NCBI GenBank assembly: GCA_021740785.1
Contig: JAIOZI010000017.1
Span: forward strand, 1-64,000
From: Melioribacteraceae bacterium
GTDB lineage: Bacteria; Bacteroidota; Ignavibacteria; Ignavibacteriales; Melioribacteraceae
Length of the DNA: 64,000 bases
Reading direction: 5' to 3'
The notes under the pieces are model-generated. The model was not told where the DNA came from, made no database searches, and saw nothing but the letters and a program-made list of their open reading frames with translations. A program made the position numbers and the translations under genes. Of this stretch, positions 1,565-60,382 are shown in pieces. Every line of letters begins with the position of its first letter. The stretch's first letter is position 1.

Positions 1565-1725
1565 ATTAAATCCAAAAAAATCGTTGGAAGTGAATTTTTG
1601 CCGTTGGCCGCTCATAAAATATTTTAATAAAACATTTTATGCTGCGGGAGTTAACTCCGATAATTTGTAAGAAAAAATTTTACTTAAATAACGAACTACT
1701 AAATTTCTATATAGCTAAGTATCTC
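1565..1725 (+). repeat. Dispersed repeat copy B, left fragment (also the left target duplication)
   Basis: This is the left part of the same hairpin-rich repeat family, beginning ATTAAATCC and containing the TAAAATATTTTAATAAAAC palindrome. It stops abruptly at the left end of the insertion sequence. Bases 1575-1725 recur at 3370-3520 with a single C/T difference (1609 versus 3404), so this is the left 151-bp target-site duplication of the element. Confidence 0.85.
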
Positions 1726-3369
1726 CCGACTTGTGACAACGAAAAAAAAGCATCAAAAAAGTTTTGAAAAATGTTCAAAAACGGTATTTTTGAAAAAGTT
1801 TGTCATACTAAGGCCCCGAGATGAGCGAATTTCATATCAGAACGACCAAAACATCCTCCAAAGCTAAAGCCGTACAAGTTGTTCGATATGAAAATAGGAG
1901 AATGATTATTGTTAAACACATTGGAAGTTCTCACAATCCAGATGAGTTAATAAAGCTAAAGTTAATTGCAAGAGAATATATTGACAAACTAACAAAACAA
2001 CCATCATTGTTTCCAAATGAACAGCCAAAGAATTTAGTGAATATCAAAGACTTTCAATACCTTGGTTTCCGTTATGGGTTGCTCTATGAAACCTTACATG
2101 GATTATGTAAAAGATTCAACTTTCATCGTCATAGGAATCAACTTCTAGTTGATTTGGTTATTGCAAGAATAATACAACCTGGTTCAAAACTACAGGCAAT
2201 CGAATTCTTAAAAGAGTTTCTGGGCATAGAACATAGAAGAGAATATTTTTATCGTGATCTTCCAAAGATGAAAACCATCAAGGAGCCGATTGCACAAAAA
2301 ATATTAAGTATTGCAAAGAAGGAATTTAACTTCAACTTTTCACTTATTTTCTATGATGTAACCACATTGTATTTTGAGAGCGATCGAGCAGATGATTTTC
2401 GAAAACCCGGTTTTTCAAAAGACAATAAGTTTAACCAACCACAAATAGTATTGGGATTGATAGTGACAAAAGAAGGCTTTCCGTTGTGGTATCAAATATT
2501 TGAGGGAAATAAATTTGAAGGGCATACATTAATCCCGATTATCAAAGATTTTAAGAAGAAACATAAGATTGATACCATTACAGTAGTTGCAGATGCGGCA
2601 ATGATAAGTAGTGAAAACATCAAATTACTTTCTTCGGCTTCTCTTAATTACATAGTTGGAGCCAGATTAGCAAATCTTCGACTCTCATTAATAAAGACAG
2701 TATCAGCTAAGTTGAAAAACTCGGATGGTAAAACAGTCAGGGTAAAGACCGAACTTGGAGACTTGATATGTGAATACTCTGAGAAGCGATACCGTAAAGA
2801 TAAACGAGAGATGGACAAATATATAAAAAAAGCAGAAAGCCTTATCAAAGAACCGGGTAAAATCAAAAGAGCGAAATACGTTAAGGTACAGAATCAATCA
2901 TACCAATTGAACAAAACATTAATAGAGAAGAATGAACTTCTGTTGGGAATAAAGGGCTATTACACAAACTTAGAACTGTCAGAAGTAGAAGACAAAACCA
3001 TAATAGAGCATTATCACAATCTCTGGCAAATTGAACATGCGTTTAGGATAACAAAAAGTGATTTACAGATACGTCCAATATATCATAGAAAAAAAGAAAT
3101 AATCGAGGTACATGTGTTGATATGTTTTATGGCATTGGCAGTTTGTAAGTATATGGAATTAAAGACGGAGCAGTCAACACAGTCAATACTAAAGCAGTTG
3201 AAGAGTGTAACTGATGCAAGGATAAAAAACAGATTGAGCGGGCAAGAAGTTATTTTAAGATCAGAAATCAACTCGGATATAGAACTGATTTTAAAGAATC
3301 TTCGTTTTTGAGTTGTTTCCCAAGTTTTTTGAGTCCGATCTGTTGTCATACTAAAAATCACAAGTCAGG
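1726..3369 (+). mobile_element. IS1634-like insertion sequence (IS4 superfamily), ~1.64 kb
   Basis: One transposase gene is bounded by short imperfect terminal inverted repeats: left CCGACTTGTGACAAC, and the complement of the right end CCTGACTTGTGAT. The exact boundary is ambiguous by one base because a C is shared. It is flanked by a 151-bp direct duplication of the interrupted repeat copy. Very long, variable duplications are a known trait of IS1634-type elements. The element looks complete, and the near-identity of the duplications suggests a recent insertion. Confidence 0.85.
1821..3311 (+). CDS. IS1634-like family transposase
   Basis: This 496-residue DDE transposase of the IS4 superfamily has a first catalytic Asp in FYDVTTLYFES (about residue 178) and a second in VVADAAMISS (about 258). 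The Glu lies in LWQIEHAFRITKSDL (about 405), the typical Y/W-x2-E-x6 region of IS4 elements. The N-terminus (HIRTTKTSSKAKAVQVV) resembles that of IS1634-type transposases. The reading frame is intact and full length, so the element may still be active. It sits about 95 bases inside the left terminal repeat. Confidence 0.9.
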   Translation: MSEFHIRTTKTSSKAKAVQVVRYENRRMIIVKHIGSSHNPDELIKLKLIAREYIDKLTKQPSLFPNEQPKNLVNIKDFQYLGFRYGLLYETLHGLCKRFNFHRHRNQLLVDLVIARIIQPGSKLQAIEFLKEFLGIEHRREYFYRDLPKMKTIKEPIAQKILSIAKKEFNFNFSLIFYDVTTLYFESDRADDFRKPGFSKDNKFNQPQIVLGLIVTKEGFPLWYQIFEGNKFEGHTLIPIIKDFKKKHKIDTITVVADAAMISSENIKLLSSASLNYIVGARLANLRLSLIKTVSAKLKNSDGKTVRVKTELGDLICEYSEKRYRKDKREMDKYIKKAESLIKEPGKIKRAKYVKVQNQSYQLNKTLIEKNELLLGIKGYYTNLELSEVEDKTIIEHYHNLWQIEHAFRITKSDLQIRPIYHRKKEIIEVHVLICFMALAVCKYMELKTEQSTQSILKQLKSVTDARIKNRLSGQEVILRSEINSDIELILKNLRF

Positions 3370-3584
3370 AAAAAATCGTTGGAAGTGAATTTTTGCCGTT
3401 GGCTGCTCATAAAATATTTTAATAAAACATTTTATGCTGCGGGAGTTAACTCCGATAATTTGTAAGAAAAAATTTTACTTAAATAACGAACTACTAAATT
3501 TCTATATAGCTAAGTATCTCATATTTCACAATTACAAATCGTCGGTACGAAGGGCAGATTTTCAAATGGAAAATTTGGGTTAAA
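3370..3584 (+). repeat. Dispersed repeat copy B, right part with right target duplication
   Basis: Bases 3370-3520 duplicate 1575-1725. Bases 3521-3584 then complete the interrupted repeat (CGTCGGTACGAAGGGC, a decayed AGATTTTCAAATGGAAAATT palindrome, and the GGGTTAA end). This copy is the most diverged of the four, consistent with an older repeat later hit by the insertion sequence. Confidence 0.85.
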
Positions 3585-7731: not shown

Positions 7732-7954
7732 ACCCAGATTTTCCATTGGAAAATCTGCCCTTCGGGCCGACAATTTGTAAGTTGAGAAATATCAGATACT
7801 TAGCCATATAGAAAATTTGGAATTCGTTATATGAGTAAAGTGTTTTTCTTACAAATTGTCGGGGTTAATCCCGCAACATAAAATGTTTTAATAAAACATT
7901 TTATGAGCGACCTCCGGCAAAAATTCATTTCCAATGAATTTTTTGGGATAAATT
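7730..7954 (-). repeat. Dispersed hairpin-rich repeat, copy C (full, inverted)
   Basis: A full-length (~225 bp) copy in reverse orientation. It contains both ends (AACCCAGATTTTCC and TTTTTTGGGATAAAT), the CAGATTTTCC palindrome, the GACAATTTGTAAG long-range stem, the AAAATGTTTTAATAAAACAT hairpin and the ATTCATTTCCAATGAAT hairpin. It starts on the stop codon of the upstream gene and fills most of the space before the methyltransferase. Confidence 0.9.
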
Positions 7955-35835: not shown

Positions 35836-36058
35836 AATCCCAAAAAATTCATTGGAAATGAATTTTTGCCGTTGACCGCTTATAAAATGTTTTAATAAAA
35901 CATTTTATGGTGCGGGATTAACCCCGACAATTTGCAAGAAAGATATTTTACTTAAATAACGAATACCAAAATTTCTATATGACTAAGTATTTGATATTTC
36001 ACAACTTACAAATTGTCGGCCCGAAGGGCAGATTTTCCAATGGAAAATCTGGGTTAAT
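35836..36058 (+). repeat. Dispersed hairpin-rich repeat, copy D (full length)
   Basis: A full-length ~222-bp copy from AATCCCAAAAAATTC to CTGGGTTAAT. In order it has: AAAAATTCAT/ATGAATTTTT hairpin (35843-35867), ATAAAATGTTTTA/AAACATTTTAT hairpin (35882-35908), GGGATTAACCCC, the long-range stem GACAATTTGCAAG...CTTACAAATTGTC, GCCC-GAA-GGGC and the CAGATTTTCC/GGAAAATCTG palindrome (36029-36051). The right end overlaps the stop codon of the convergent M16 peptidase gene. The ends (ATTAATCCC and, inverted, ATTAACCC) look like short terminal inverted repeats of a MITE. Confidence 0.9.
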
Positions 36059-53673: not shown

Positions 53674-55617
53674 ATGAAGTTGAAGATTTTATTAGTTGCA
53701 GTCACTTCCCTTATTATAGGTGTTCTAGGAACATACTTCTTAGCGCCCTCTTTTTCATCCGACAATGTACTTGAACACTTACATGAAGATGAAGAAGGTC
53801 AATTATGGACTTGCGGCATGCACCCGGAAATTATTTTGGAAGAACCCGGCGATTGCCCGATTTGCGGAATGAAGTTAGTCCCGGTAAAAGGTTCGGGCAG
53901 TGGTATAACAAGCGGTGAAAAAGAAATATTATTCTGGCGTGCCCCGATGGACCCGAATGAAATTTACGACGAGCCTGGCAAATCTAAAATGGGAATGGAC
54001 TTAGTTCCTGTTTATGCTGATGAAGCCGGAGCCGCTGGCGTTGTTTCTATTGATCCGGTTGTTGTTCAAAATATGAATGTAAAAACAGCTTTTGTGAAGG
54101 AAAGACAATTAGCAAATAAAATTGTTACTAATGCTGTTCTATCTACAAATGAAACAACAGACAAGATCATAACAACTAGAGTAAACGGTTGGATTGAAAA
54201 GCTTTATATTAATTATACCGGTCAAAAAGTAAGTAAAGGTGATAAACTTTTAGATATCTATTCACCTGAATTGGTTTCCGCACAAGAGGAATTGCTTACG
54301 GCAATAAATTATCAGAATGCAACCGCATCCAGCAAAGTTTCCAATATAATGGAAAGCGGCAATACCCTCGTAAAGAATTCAATTGCAAAATTGAGACTAT
54401 TGGAAATTCCTGAAAGAGATATAAAAAATATAATAGAGACAGGCGAACTTAAAACATATATGACTCTTTATGCACCGAACAACGGTACGGTAATGCATAA
54501 AAATGTTGATGAAGGTCAGAAAATAATGCCGGGAATGAATTTATTAAGGATTGCTAACTTAAGTGAGTTATGGCTGTATGCAGATATTTATGAATATGAA
54601 TTGGCTAAAATTAAGAAGAGCGCTGAAGCGAAAATAAATTTCAACTTTATGCCCGGCAAAACGTTTAGCGGTAAAGTAGATTTTATTTATCCTACTATCA
54701 ATCCCAAAACGAGAACTGCTAAAGTAAGAATAAATATAAATAATACTAGTGGTGAACTTAAACCGGATATGCTGGCTACAGTTACAATTATTGGGGCTGA
54801 TTTGGGAATATATCCTACCATCCCAGAAGAAGCAATTCTTAGGGGAGGACTTAGTGATATTGTTATTGTTTCAATTGGAGAGGGTAAATTCAAACCGCAG
54901 CCGGTGAAGCTTGGCGCATATGCCGATGGATATTATCAAATACTCGAAGGATTATCCGAAGGAACTGAAATTGTTACTTCCGCTCAATTCTTAATCGATT
55001 CTGAAAGTAACTTAAAAGCAGCGGTTAAAAAGTTTTCATCCGAACCAAGTAAAATCGAAGCAAATGAAACAGATATGAGTGAAGGTACTTCAACAAATAA
55101 GAAAGTTGAGCAAGCCCCTGTTAAAAGCGGAATGAACATGGAAGATGAATCTCATGAGCTGGAACAATCTGAATTGGTTAGAACAGGTATAATCGATCTC
55201 GAAGAAATTGATGAAAACAATGACGGAAAAGTTTATCAGGATGCTATGGATTGGAATGTGATTTCGGATGAGCCCGGTGAATGTCCTTTATGCGGAATGA
55301 CCCTTCAGGAATTCACACTTGAAGAAGCTAAAAAGAATTTGGAAAAACATGGTTATAAAGCAGAAGCGCTATCCGGTGGTAACGAAACAGGGCAGACAAA
55401 TGAATATGGTGTCGACTCACCGTTAATTAGAACAGGTGTAATCGATCTCGAAGCAATTGATGAAAACGATGACGGGAAAGTTTATCAGGATTTTATGGAC
55501 TGGAATGTAATCTCTGATGAACCCGGAAGATGCCCCGTATGCAATATGATACTTCAAGAAGTAACACTGGAGGATGCAAAATCCAACTTAATTGAACACG
55601 GTTATCAAGTAAAGTAA
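53674..55617 (+). CDS. CusB-like periplasmic adaptor with metal-binding modules
   Basis: 647 residues, longer than typical CusB. N-terminal anchor (KILLVAVTSLIIGVLGTYFL), then a heavy-metal-binding domain LWTCGMHPEIILEEPGDCPI...CGMKLVPV (about 45-72) and a second degenerate one WRAPMDPNEIYDEPGKSKMG. The adaptor core follows (VNGWIEKLYINYTGQKVSKG; LYAPNNGTVMHKNVDEGQKI). The C-terminus adds two ~60-residue modules (about 498-563, 583-647), each with an EF-hand-like loop DENNDGKVYQDAMDWNVISD or DENDDGKVYQDFMDWNVISD plus CPLCGM / CPVCNM. The second has Asn for Gly. It delivers metal to the RND pump. Confidence 0.9.
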   Translation: MKLKILLVAVTSLIIGVLGTYFLAPSFSSDNVLEHLHEDEEGQLWTCGMHPEIILEEPGDCPICGMKLVPVKGSGSGITSGEKEILFWRAPMDPNEIYDEPGKSKMGMDLVPVYADEAGAAGVVSIDPVVVQNMNVKTAFVKERQLANKIVTNAVLSTNETTDKIITTRVNGWIEKLYINYTGQKVSKGDKLLDIYSPELVSAQEELLTAINYQNATASSKVSNIMESGNTLVKNSIAKLRLLEIPERDIKNIIETGELKTYMTLYAPNNGTVMHKNVDEGQKIMPGMNLLRIANLSELWLYADIYEYELAKIKKSAEAKINFNFMPGKTFSGKVDFIYPTINPKTRTAKVRININNTSGELKPDMLATVTIIGADLGIYPTIPEEAILRGGLSDIVIVSIGEGKFKPQPVKLGAYADGYYQILEGLSEGTEIVTSAQFLIDSESNLKAAVKKFSSEPSKIEANETDMSEGTSTNKKVEQAPVKSGMNMEDESHELEQSELVRTGIIDLEEIDENNDGKVYQDAMDWNVISDEPGECPLCGMTLQEFTLEEAKKNLEKHGYKAEALSGGNETGQTNEYGVDSPLIRTGVIDLEAIDENDDGKVYQDFMDWNVISDEPGRCPVCNMILQEVTLEDAKSNLIEHGYQVK

Positions 55618-55635
55618 TTTCTGGGAGAAAGTTTA

Positions 55636-58600
55636 ATGGTTAGTCAAGGTACTCAAAAAGACGGTTTAATTGCAAAGCTTATTGAATGGTCAATCAATAA
55701 TAAATTTTTAGTAATAATATTTACACTTTTTTTGATCGGCGCCGGGTATTGGTCTTTAATGAATACCCCCGTTGATGCTTTGCCCGATTTAAGTGATGTT
55801 CAGGTTATTATTTATACCGAATATCCCGGGCAGGGACCGCAAATTGTAGAAGACCAAGTAACTTACCCGATGACTACTAAGATGTTATCCGTGCCATATG
55901 CGCAGGTAGTAAGAGGATATTCATTCTTTGGCTTTTCTATGACTTACATAATTTTCGAAGACGGAACGGATATTTATTGGGCGCGGAGCAGAGTTTTGGA
56001 ATATCTGAGTTCGATGCAGAATGATCTTCCGCAAGGTGTTGCGCCGCAGCTTGGTCCGGATGCTACCGGTTTAGGATGGGTTTATCAATATGCACTTCAA
56101 TCCGATAATCACGATCTGCAAGAACTGCGTTCAATTCAAGATTGGTTTTTGCGTTATGAACTCTCGGCGCTCCCCGGTGTTTCAGAAGTTGCCAGCATTG
56201 GCGGTTTCGTAAAACAGTACCAGGTTAATGTCGATCCTAACAAATTAGCTTCTTACCGGATACCCCTCTCAAAAATTAAAAAAGCTATTAAACAAAGCAA
56301 TAATGACGTAGGAGGAAAGCTTCTTGAAATCAGCGAGATGGAATTTATGGTTAGGGGGCTCGGGTATATTCAAGGTGTTGATGATTTAAAGAAAATTGTT
56401 GTTGGAAATGCAATTGAAACCGGAACACCTATCTTCCTCGATGATGTTGCAAATATAGATGTAGGACCCGAGTTAAGAAGAGGATTAGCAGAATGGAACG
56501 GGGAAGGCGAGACAGTTGGCGGCATTATTGTAATGCGCTACGGTGAAAATGCTTTAGAAGTTATTAATAGAGTTAAAGAACGGCTTGACGAATTACAAAG
56601 TTCACTTCCGGAAGGTGTTGAAATTGTAACTGCGTACGACCGTTCCGATTTAATAAATGCCGCTATCGATAATCTGAAAAACACATTAATCGAAGAAAGT
56701 ATAATTGTTGCAATAATCATTATCCTTTTCTTGCTCCATGTGCGCAGTTCCCTAGTTGCAATTTTTACATTACCAACTGCTGTACTAGCCGCATATATTA
56801 TCATGAAGTATCAGGGGATTAATGCAAACATAATGTCGCTGGGAGGTATTGCAATTGCTATCGGGGCAATGGTTGATGCCGCCATTATTATGGTTGAAAA
56901 TGCTCACACGCATATGGTGCGTGATCAAGAAAAACCGGAAGAGAAAAGAAGACCGCACTGGGCATTGGTTCTTGAATCTGCTAAAGAAGTTGGTCCGTCT
57001 ATTTTTTATTCATTACTTGTGATCACGGTTTCGTTTTTACCGGTATTTACTCTTGAACAGCAGGAAGGACGATTATTTAAACCGCTCGCCTATACAAAAA
57101 CGTATTCTATGGGAATGGCTGCAATTTTGGCTGTTACTATTGTTCCAATACTAATCGGATTTTTTGTTAGAGGCAAAATGCGTAAAGAGGAAAGTAATCC
57201 TTTAACAAAACTGCTTACAAAAATATACCACCCTGTTGTTGATTTCGTAATGAAAAGGAGATGGTGGGTAATTGGTTCTGCTTTAATTATTATGGCGATA
57301 ACATACCTGCCATATTCAAAGTTGGGATCGGAATTTATGCCGCCCCTTTATGAAGGTGATCTGTTATATATGCCGACAACCCTGCCGGGTATATCGGTTA
57401 CCAAAGCCAAAGAGATACTCCAACAAACTGATAAAATAATAAAATCTTTCCCGGAAGTTGAATCGGTTTTCGGGAAGATCGGAAGAGCGAGGACGGCAAC
57501 AGACCCGGCTCCTTTAACCATGATTGAGACAACGATCCAATTGAAGGATAAATCAGAGTGGCGGGAAGATATGACGCCGGATAAACTTATTGAAGAAATG
57601 AATGCGGCAATTCAAATTCCGGGTTTAACCAACGCCTGGACAATGCCGATCAAAACAAGAATTGATATGCTTTCTACCGGGATTAAAACGCCTGTTGGTA
57701 TTAAAATTTCCGGACCCGATTTGAATGTACTTCAAGAGATTGGGCAGGAGATTGAGAATGTTGCCCGAACAATTCCAGGTACAAGGTCGGCTTATGCTGA
57801 AAGGTCTGCCGGCGGAAATTATGTCGATTTCAAAATTGACCGCGACGCAATTGCAAGATACGGATTGAACATAGGTGATGTGCAGGATGTAATTATGTCT
57901 GCAATCGGCGGTATGAATATTTCGCAAACAGTAGAAGGTCTTGAACGTTACCCAATTAATTTAAGATACCAAAGAGATTACAGGCAGAATGTTGAAGCTC
58001 TTAAAAGAGTGCTGGTTCCTATTCCAACCGGCGGGCAGGTTCCGCTTGCTGAGTTAACAGATCTTCAAATTAAAAAAGGACCGCCTGCTATTAAGTCGGA
58101 GAATGCTCGACCAAATGCATGGGTCTATATAGATATAAAAGATATTGACGTTGGTACTTATGTTCAAGAAGCTCAAAGAGTTATTAATGAAGAAGTAACT
58201 CTTCCTGCGGGCTATTCAATAATTTGGTCAGGTCAATACGAATATATGCAAAGATCTTCAAAAAGATTGGCGATGGTAGTACCATTAACATTATTACTGG
58301 TAATTGTGCTTTTGTATATGAATACTAAATCGGTATTAAAAACAAGCATCATCTTATTGGCTCTTCCGTTTTCGATGGTCGGTTCAATCTGGTTCCTTTA
58401 TTTGGCTGATTATAATTTGAGTGTCGCAGTCTGGGTCGGGGTAATTGCGCTGCTTGGGATAAGCGCTGAAACAGGTGTTGTGATGCTTCTCTATCTCGAT
58501 ATTGCATATGATAAATTCAAAAAGCAGGGATTGATAAAATCGCTCAACGATTTGAGGGAAGCAATATTTGAAGGCGCCGTAAAAAGAATACGACCTAAAA

Positions 58601-58830
58601 TGATGACTGTAATGACAACCATGCTTGGCTTATTCCCGATTCTTATTGGCGTGGGAATAGGTTCCGATGTTATGAAGAGAATTGCAGCCCCGATGGTCGG
58701 CGGTATAATAACAAGTTTTATAATGGAACTGACCCTGTTCCCTGCAATATTCTATATAGTTAAGAAGAAAGAAGTGCTTCAGCTAATAAATTCCGATTCC
58801 GGTAATGCAAAACAAATTGAAGGAGAATAA
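55636..58830 (+). CDS. cusA: CusA-like heavy-metal RND efflux pump
   Basis: 1064 residues, the full RND length. Periplasmic N-terminal segment TPVDALPDLSDVQVIIYTEY, TM4 proton-relay motif AIGAMVDAAIIMVENAH (about residue 408) as in copper/silver CusA, and repeated helices (VPLTLLLVIVLLYMNTKSVL; VGVIALLGISAETGVVMLLY). It uses the proton gradient to export Cu+/Ag+ from the periplasm via the adjacent CusB- and CusC-like proteins. Start ATG with CTGGGAGAAAG upstream. Metal specificity is inferred from motif and neighbours. Confidence 0.93.
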   Translation: MVSQGTQKDGLIAKLIEWSINNKFLVIIFTLFLIGAGYWSLMNTPVDALPDLSDVQVIIYTEYPGQGPQIVEDQVTYPMTTKMLSVPYAQVVRGYSFFGFSMTYIIFEDGTDIYWARSRVLEYLSSMQNDLPQGVAPQLGPDATGLGWVYQYALQSDNHDLQELRSIQDWFLRYELSALPGVSEVASIGGFVKQYQVNVDPNKLASYRIPLSKIKKAIKQSNNDVGGKLLEISEMEFMVRGLGYIQGVDDLKKIVVGNAIETGTPIFLDDVANIDVGPELRRGLAEWNGEGETVGGIIVMRYGENALEVINRVKERLDELQSSLPEGVEIVTAYDRSDLINAAIDNLKNTLIEESIIVAIIIILFLLHVRSSLVAIFTLPTAVLAAYIIMKYQGINANIMSLGGIAIAIGAMVDAAIIMVENAHTHMVRDQEKPEEKRRPHWALVLESAKEVGPSIFYSLLVITVSFLPVFTLEQQEGRLFKPLAYTKTYSMGMAAILAVTIVPILIGFFVRGKMRKEESNPLTKLLTKIYHPVVDFVMKRRWWVIGSALIIMAITYLPYSKLGSEFMPPLYEGDLLYMPTTLPGISVTKAKEILQQTDKIIKSFPEVESVFGKIGRARTATDPAPLTMIETTIQLKDKSEWREDMTPDKLIEEMNAAIQIPGLTNAWTMPIKTRIDMLSTGIKTPVGIKISGPDLNVLQEIGQEIENVARTIPGTRSAYAERSAGGNYVDFKIDRDAIARYGLNIGDVQDVIMSAIGGMNISQTVEGLERYPINLRYQRDYRQNVEALKRVLVPIPTGGQVPLAELTDLQIKKGPPAIKSENARPNAWVYIDIKDIDVGTYVQEAQRVINEEVTLPAGYSIIWSGQYEYMQRSSKRLAMVVPLTLLLVIVLLYMNTKSVLKTSIILLALPFSMVGSIWFLYLADYNLSVAVWVGVIALLGISAETGVVMLLYLDIAYDKFKKQGLIKSLNDLREAIFEGAVKRIRPKMMTVMTTMLGLFPILIGVGIGSDVMKRIAAPMVGGIITSFIMELTLFPAIFYIVKKKEVLQLINSDSGNAKQIEGE

Positions 58831-58831
58831 G

Positions 58832-59164
58832 ATGAAAGAGATAAAAGCATATTTACGCAGAGAGAAAGCCGATATTGTGATTGAAAAACTTGAAGATGCA
58901 GGTGTAAAAGGAATGACGGTGATTGATGTTTATGCTTTATGCGAATGGGCGGATAAAGAAAACTATAGTTTTTCAATCGAGTTTGTTGAAAAATATTCAA
59001 AGGTAATAAAACTGGAAATTGTATGCGGCGATGACGAATTAGATAAATTGGTCGAAGTAATTGCGAAATACGGGCATACAGGTAAAAGTGGTGACGGGAT
59101 GATATTTATGTCAACCGTCGATAGTTCGTTAAAAATTAGAACCGGCGAAAAAAATGTTGTTTAA
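58832..59164 (+). CDS. PII-like protein of the efflux-linked (PII-NG) type
   Basis: 110 residues from ATG 58832, directly after the pump stop with ribosome-binding site AAGGAGAATA; a frame starting at 58805 would overlap the pump. It reads as a GlnB-like ferredoxin fold (EIKAYLRREKADIVIEKLED ... GMTVIDVYALCEWADK ... KVIKLEIVCGDDELDKLVEV ... KYGHTGKSGDGMIFMSTVDS). It lacks the conserved uridylylation-type T-loop. PII proteins linked to metal RND pumps have been described as a distinct group (PII-NG). It probably senses a nucleotide or metal and modulates the pump. Confidence 0.82.
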   Translation: MKEIKAYLRREKADIVIEKLEDAGVKGMTVIDVYALCEWADKENYSFSIEFVEKYSKVIKLEIVCGDDELDKLVEVIAKYGHTGKSGDGMIFMSTVDSSLKIRTGEKNVV

Positions 59165-59181
59165 TAAATGCGAGTGTAAAA

Positions 59182-59799
59182 ATGAATAATCCTAAAAAAA
59201 GTACTATCCAAAGATGGGTCTTAATTATAGCATTGGTTTTTGTACATGCGACTGTTCTCGGACAGTCAGAAAATAATAATGTAATGAACTCAATAGAACA
59301 TTATAATTTTCAGATGATGAAGAGTTCTCCGAGTGAAATGCCGGATAGTATAAAATCCATAGTAAGAGAAGATCCGATCGAAGTTGAATCTTTTGATACT
59401 AATAAAGACGGTAAAATTTTCCAAGATCAAATGGATTGGAATGTAATTTCCGATGAACCGGGTGACTGTCCTTTATGCGGAATGAAATTAAAGGAAGTCA
59501 GTATTGATGAAGCGAAAGCTAATTTGGTTAAAAACGGTTTTGCGATTAAGAGCTTTAAAAATGAGAGAAAGAATATTGTTGATTCCAATAATTCTAAAAA
59601 ATCTATTTGGAACAAATACTGCCCGGTTTCCGGTATGAAGATTAGCTTTGGTTCAGAAACAGTAGATTACGACGGCAAGACTATAGGCTTTTGCTGCCCA
59701 AGCAAAGAACACAACAAAGTATTTTTGGAAGATCCCGAAAAATATATCAAGAATCTAAGTATCGACGGTCAAACATTTATTGGAAATGAACAGAAATAA
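59182..59799 (+). CDS. Exported metal-binding protein: EF/CPxCGM module plus YHS domain
   Basis: 205 residues. Signal peptide (about 30 residues, ending near TVLGQ), a short linker, and an EF-hand-like/CPxCGM module (about residues 60-123: FDTNKDGKIFQDQMDWNVIS, DCPLCGMKLKEV). A YHS-like domain follows (YCPVSGMKISFGSE ... VDYDGKTIGFCCPSKEHNKV-FLEDPEKYI). Both parts supply Cys/Met ligands. As an exported, probably periplasmic, protein in the Cus-like operon it likely buffers or shuttles copper/silver. It overlaps the next frame's first possible start but not its preferred start. Confidence 0.82.
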   Translation: MNNPKKSTIQRWVLIIALVFVHATVLGQSENNNVMNSIEHYNFQMMKSSPSEMPDSIKSIVREDPIEVESFDTNKDGKIFQDQMDWNVISDEPGDCPLCGMKLKEVSIDEAKANLVKNGFAIKSFKNERKNIVDSNNSKKSIWNKYCPVSGMKISFGSETVDYDGKTIGFCCPSKEHNKVFLEDPEKYIKNLSIDGQTFIGNEQK

Positions 59800-59845
59800 T
59801 ACTATGAGAAAAAATAAATCAATTAATATACCAGGAGGTATAGTC

Positions 59846-60376
59846 ATGCATAAAACAAAAATAATGAGTCACAGATTAACCGTTTTTTTTACTGTACTTA
59901 TCTTATCGGCAGTCACTTTATTCGCGCTGGAAAAACCGGATAGCACAAAAATGGGTCATAAAATGAATCACTCTATGATGGATTCAACCCATCATTCCAA
60001 AATGATGAAACACAATATGATGGATTCAACCAAACATTCCAAAATGATGAATCATTCAATGATGGATTCAACCAAACATTCCAAAATGATGAATCATTCA
60101 ATGATGGATTCAACCAAACATTCTAAAATGATGAAACATAGTATGATGGATTCATCAAAAATGATGAAACATAAATCATCGATTGTGAGAGAAGAACCGA
60201 TCGACTTAAAAGCTATTGATGCCAACGGCGACGGAAAAGTATTCCAAGATCAAATGGATTGGAATGTAATCTCTGATGAAGCGGGAGAGTGTCCTCTCTG
60301 CGGAATGAAACTTAAAGAAGTCCCCTTGAACAATGCCAAGTTTAAATTGATTGAAAATGGCTTTGAAGTGAAGTGA
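59846..60376 (+). CDS. Exported Met/His-repeat protein with EF/CPxCGM module
   Basis: 176 residues. ATG 59846 is preferred because CCAGGAGGTATAGTC precedes it with ideal spacing; the earlier ATG at 59780 has no such site. Signal peptide (to about residue 27), then four 14-residue repeats of the type MNHSMMDSTKHSKM plus a short fifth (about 40-109). These Met/His clusters are typical of copper/silver binding. The C-terminal module (about 113-176) has DANGDGKVFQDQMDWNVISD and ECPLCGMKLKEVP. Likely a periplasmic copper or silver sponge. Confidence 0.85.
   Translation: MHKTKIMSHRLTVFFTVLILSAVTLFALEKPDSTKMGHKMNHSMMDSTHHSKMMKHNMMDSTKHSKMMNHSMMDSTKHSKMMNHSMMDSTKHSKMMKHSMMDSSKMMKHKSSIVREEPIDLKAIDANGDGKVFQDQMDWNVISDEAGECPLCGMKLKEVPLNNAKFKLIENGFEVK
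59963..60163 (+). repeat. 42-bp coding tandem repeats (Met/His repeats)
   Basis: Four 42-base units, each encoding 14 residues rich in Met and His, and a shortened fifth unit. The third and fourth units encode the same peptide, differing at most at synonymous positions, which suggests recent slippage expansion. Confidence 0.85.
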
Positions 60377-60382
60377 TTCAGC

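Follow-up and report, generated by a model that had tools for sequence, protein, structure and literature searches.

An IS1634-family insertion sequence with a probable 150-bp target duplication in an old MITE copy, and a long-duplication branch of its family

Near the start of a stretch of Melioribacteraceae DNA (64,000 nucleotides, positions 1 to 64,000 of contig JAIOZI010000017.1 in assembly GCA_021740785.1; the window), an intact insertion sequence stands between two nearly identical segments of about 150 bp. Nearly all DDE transposases make a short duplication of fixed length, with two active sites gripping the target at a set distance. The locus raises the question of whether these segments are a true target duplication and, if so, what gave the duplication its length and whether the hairpins of the target DNA had a part in it. 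The window begins at the contig end of a draft genome.

The boundaries of the element can be read from its ends. The flanking segments match over 151 bp (1575-1725 and 3370-3520) with one difference, as had been described in an earlier interpretation made without database searches (the sequence-only reading); the difference is C/T at offset 34. The left end of the element reads CC[C]GACTTGTGA and the right end CC[T]GACTTGTGA. The element was taken to extend from 1725 to 3369 on the forward strand (1645 bp), because its short terminal inverted repeats, CCCGACTTGTGA at 1725-1736 (forward strand) and CCTGACTTGTGA at 3358-3369 (reverse strand), then pair without a gap. With these boundaries the duplication is 150 bp long (left copy 1575-1724, right copy 3370-3519), and base 151 is a chance match. 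The long duplication attributed to the element in the sequence-only reading thus held, with 150 bp as the best length and 151 bp as the raw match. The element is present in a single copy, and a search of its own 4.85 Mb draft genome for further copies found none.

The transposase places the element in the IS1634 family. Its gene (1821-3311, forward strand) is intact and encodes a DDE-type protein of 496 amino acids, which scores 336 bits against the NCBIfam profile NF033559 (cut-off 100), in agreement with the family first proposed for it. The PF01609 match corresponds to the DDE catalytic domain, and the motifs starting at protein positions 177 (FYDVTT), 255 (VVADAAM), and 404 (IEHAFR) are likely catalytic. 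The arrangement Y-(2)-L-(3)-E-(6)-K in YHNLWQIEHAFRITK, at protein position 398, fits the YREK motif, which in this family is mostly without the arginine (PMC2266710). An AlphaFold model from the single sequence had a pLDDT of 35 and was set aside. The element also has the length (1645 bp, within 1500-2000 bp) and the C-----YT ends (CCCGACTT and CCTGACTT) of the family. It departs from the AT-rich duplication of 5-6 bp found in most described members (PMC2266710), and for this reason it is grouped with the long-duplication branch; membership in the family is kept because IS1549 and the type element IS1634 are named exceptions. A second, distant IS1634-like transposase gene lies on contig 54 of the same genome (L107, 1638-6065). 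It is split by an insert with ORFs of 502 and 268 codons, sizes that suggest what we take to be an IS21-type pair. As it is interrupted and has no usable ends, this gene was rejected as a comparison element.

The insertion hit an old copy of a miniature element of about 216 bp with ends CCC...GGG. This repeat is short, non-coding, and multicopy, with inverted ends and a duplication of constant length, which are the properties of a MITE. A search for its right end found 101 places in the genome, a total in which one palindromic place figures twice, once per strand; with a longer pattern, 65 left ends were matched. There are thus about 100 copies, making up about 0.5% of the genome. The 5-bp duplication has the general form TTWAW and is exact in most of about 30 copies examined, with the types TTAAT, TTTAA, and TTTAT. 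The window has four copies: A at 1-142, B at 1571-3579 (split by the insertion sequence), C at 7733-7947 on the reverse strand, and D at 35839-36053. In an alignment with 30 other MITE copies, the left part of copy B occupies 1571-1724 and the remainder 3520-3579, both on the forward strand. The duplicated DNA thus comes from the left part of copy B, and the repeat resumes after the element, as the sequence-only reading had it. Its description of the repeat as hairpin-rich was also correct: an intact copy folds strongly (z = -8.8), with two perfect hairpins of 11-12 bp, one hairpin of 10 bp, and a long-range stem. An Rfam search of the window gave no match. No transposase that mobilizes the 216-bp MITE was found. 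Diverged relatives of the MITE occur in other genera of the order (loci L072, L087, and L043; genomes G048, G081, and others). Both ends are conserved in these relatives while the second hairpin differs (in L043 it is a long stem unrelated in sequence), a pattern that looks like structure being kept while sequence changes.

To judge from the other MITE copies, the 150-bp repeat is a genuine target duplication rather than a tandem inherited from the ancestral site. The ancestral site was judged from MITE paralogues in the same genome. The sampled paralogues (about 30) carry the 150-bp segment once and are flanked by 5-bp duplications, and since the compared copies hold the segment once, the ancestral site is taken to have held it once as well. 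Identity between the two 150-bp copies is 99.3%, whereas no other MITE copy compared reaches more than 89.3% against them, which excludes chance. The single base that distinguishes the copies and the position of the site inside the contig make an assembly artefact unlikely. Another possibility is that the 151-bp segment was already tandem and the element landed between the copies with a short duplication of its own or none. The tandem form, which the sequence-only reading had named as the alternative to its claim, is absent from all MITE copies compared. The junctions share their base preference (V^A, described below) with about 20 independent relatives, so that one would have to assume the same coincidence for each of them. 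A tandem origin is scarcely credible for these reasons.

Recombination between two copies of the insertion sequence located in two different MITE copies could also bring similar flanks together. The genome offers about 100 MITE copies for such an event, and in one relative of the element (L043) a MITE adjoins a rearranged flank. However, both flanks of the window element share changes specific to copy B and are one base apart, whereas divergence from the other MITE copies is about 11% or higher. In addition, the TTAAA duplication of copy B is preserved on both sides of the whole composite (1566-1570 and 3580-3584), and the element is single-copy. This makes recombination very improbable, and a target duplication remains the preferred reading.

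Long duplications are found around many related elements and vary widely in length. Relatives were drawn from 97 near genomes, 395 genomes of the phylum, 65 genomes of one putative Chlorobium-like genus, a collection of named genomes, and plasmids; several come from metagenome assemblies. Most keep the left-end pattern CC[CT]GA[CG]TT. Duplications were defined as direct repeats abutting the conserved ends and were found by script. The clean duplications are 32, 33, 34, 45, 47, 49, 72, 72, 73, 73, 90, 93, 93, 118, 127, 147, 150, 171, 406, 407, at least 629 (running to a contig end), and 680 bp. A further three are less clean: one of about 100 bp has masked bases, and two, of 93 and 152 bp, are disturbed by an indel or rearrangement. 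A complete plasmid of Aliarcobacter cryaerophilus carries the 680-bp duplication (L091, 1199-1880 and 3616-4297), which leaves part of a Crp/Fnr-type gene present twice. Two near-identical Persicobacter elements have duplications of 33 and 406 bp, three near-identical elements of the Chlorobium-like genus have 93, 127, and at least 629 bp, and two other near-identical elements have 90 and 407 bp. Variation between copies of one element is seen in these near-identical relatives, the window element being single-copy, and it indicates that the length is not written in the protein. In L043 the left flank (about 1213-1471) abuts a MITE copy, the right flank (3087-3210) contains a palindromic repeat of the GTCATTCTGAGGAGCGGAGCGAC type, and the duplication is interrupted, by rearrangement or misassembly. 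In L037 a perfect hairpin of about 20 bp (about 3105-3160) adjoins the right end of a related element without a detectable duplication.

The phylogeny of the transposases suggests that long duplication is a habit of one branch of the IS1634 family rather than a peculiarity of DNA with hairpins. A tree of 42 transposases, which does not include IS1549 and the Mycoplasma IS1634 and is rooted at the midpoint for drawing only, separates into two halves with 100/100 support. The half that contains the window element has 33 members: 25 have long duplications, seven have none that could be found, and one (Microbacterium) has a possible duplication of 5 bp. Duplications of 32-680 bp are thus present in 25 of the 26 members with a resolvable duplication, and among these same-clade relatives the Microbacterium element is the one possible case of the short duplications that would have spoken against the sequence-only reading. 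Either the rule for this clade has exceptions, or these eight elements are rearranged copies. The other half includes elements from Alicyclobacillus, Acidiphilium, Bradyrhizobium, Gloeothece, Thiodictyon, and Paraburkholderia and one from Rhodococcus. Duplications there are 4-6 bp in all seven cases where one was found; such matches are individually weak, and they agree with the published 5-6 bp. The statement in the sequence-only reading that the IS1634 family is the known exception to short duplications is therefore too broad: it fits one half of the tree, while most described members duplicate 5-6 bp (PMC2266710).

The junctions of the duplications follow a simple base preference. Read from each side, the first duplicated base is A in 37 of 43 junctions (background 28%, P ~2e-15), the second is a purine in 34 of 43, and the base preceding the junction is T in only two of 43. 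This V^A rule is equal at both ends of the elements and at every duplication length. It is read as the trace of two strand transfers, each of which would be guided by local sequence. The duplications do not differ from their flanks in AT-richness, and their lengths show no helical period (P 0.3), so the sequence gives no pointer to unwinding or to a looped duplex.

Target choice by hairpins, which the sequence-only reading had suggested, is not supported as a rule. If the element inserted into extruded hairpins, distant bases on opposite strands would be brought close together, and the hairpins would set both the target and the length. Empty sites were rebuilt for 21 targets, and the strongest local hairpin was compared with that of control sites up to 20 kb away. 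Hairpins are enriched in the targets over all positions (Fisher 2e-6), mainly because the targets are more often noncoding (43% against a background of 12%), an excess that is expected if insertions in genes are lost. With controls matched for coding or noncoding location the enrichment is modest (Fisher 5e-4), and the matched ranks give a KS value of 0.07. About seven of the 21 targets have an unusually strong hairpin, for example terminator-like hairpins in L061, L066, and L102, and the target family in the window is itself strongly structured. Against this, roughly half of the targets lie in coding DNA that folds in the ordinary way, local sliding of the duplication windows gives no hairpin excess (Fisher 0.16), the junctions are not positioned at hairpins, and the MITE, at its share of the genome, has received a single known insertion. 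The hairpin tests weigh less because they were run after the sites had been inspected by eye. Hairpins appear to be neither needed nor shown to be chosen, and insertion guided by them is improbable. Insertion sequences that target palindromes are known, among them IS1397, which targets REP/PU units, and IS231A. The window element resembles them in being located in a structured intergenic repeat and differs in that recognition of structure is unsupported for it.

The locus is very probably explained by a jump of the element into an old MITE copy, with 150 bp duplicated by a transposase of the long-duplication half, presumably through joinings of unfixed spacing and gap repair. The evidence for this is comparative throughout. 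Both 3' ends of the element would be joined to opposite target strands at two places, each picked by a short local motif, a 5'-A with a preceding base other than T. The spacing between the joinings, about 30 to about 700 bp, would not be fixed by the transposase. Their polarity would leave a gap on each side, and host repair synthesis would fill both gaps, copying the whole stretch. In the sister half the two joinings would be coupled at the usual 4-6 bp. We infer that strand transfer is loosely coupled in the long-duplication half, possibly on replicating or gapped DNA. A broader version, which we hold tentatively, is that transfer may be uncoupled across this deep half, with independently chosen V^A sites and a spacing that would be set by a host intermediate such as a fork, a gap, or an extruded hairpin and not by the transposase. 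To our knowledge uncoupled joining of the ends to the target is known in no other clade of DDE transposases.

Replication forks could supply the spacing. The transposase would work at forks through the sliding clamp, and the single-stranded gaps there would set the distance between the joinings; gaps tens to hundreds of bases long would be compatible with the duplications. Binding to the beta clamp is documented for one transposase of the IS1634 family, for which binding strength determines the rate of transposition (PMC4549789). However, the transposase in question comes from Acidiphilium, whose element in the present tree belongs to the short-duplication clade. In an alignment scanned by eye, a C-terminal beta-clamp motif was not conserved in the long-duplication clade. 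The fork route is rather unlikely, and it is possibly one way of realizing the loosely coupled transfer preferred here, not a competitor to the duplication itself.

Long duplications were already known for two elements, IS1549 of Mycobacterium smegmatis and IS1634 of Mycoplasma mycoides. Their direct repeats are 8-514 bp according to the summary in a 2008 review (PMC2266710, citing Plikaytis 1998 and Vilei 1999), according to which no mechanism had been put forward for them. As far as that summary goes, the likeness to the window element consists of the family and the long, variable repeats; the hosts and sequences are different. In contrast to these two cases, the trait described here belongs to a broad clade, reaches 680 bp, and comes with a common junction motif. 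The Acidiphilium IS1634, ISPfe2, and ISGka5, with duplications of 5-6 bp (PMC2266710, PMC3281130, PMC8024623, PMC4549789), share the family model, the DDE transposase, and related ends with the window element. Most short-duplication elements have ends of the form CYGAASTT. Those of their transposases that could be measured are larger and have about 45 additional residues close to the C-terminus. Within the open-access literature searched, the clade-wide rule and the junction motif appear to be new, and the 680-bp case is also unreported.

With a trait that marks a broad clade and keeps the same base preference at both joints whatever the distance, what was an oddity becomes open to comparison. 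Transposases of apparently fixed and unfixed spacing are related and differ by a C-terminal segment, which may make them suitable for a side-by-side study. The long-duplication elements also copy stretches of DNA of a useful size, which can amount to most of a gene.

Another repeat was observed at the far end of the window. Five tandem units of 42 bp at 59963-60172 encode a Met/His-rich repeat, and CPLCGM-type modules are found near them, in the region 53833-60378; the products are perhaps metal-binding.
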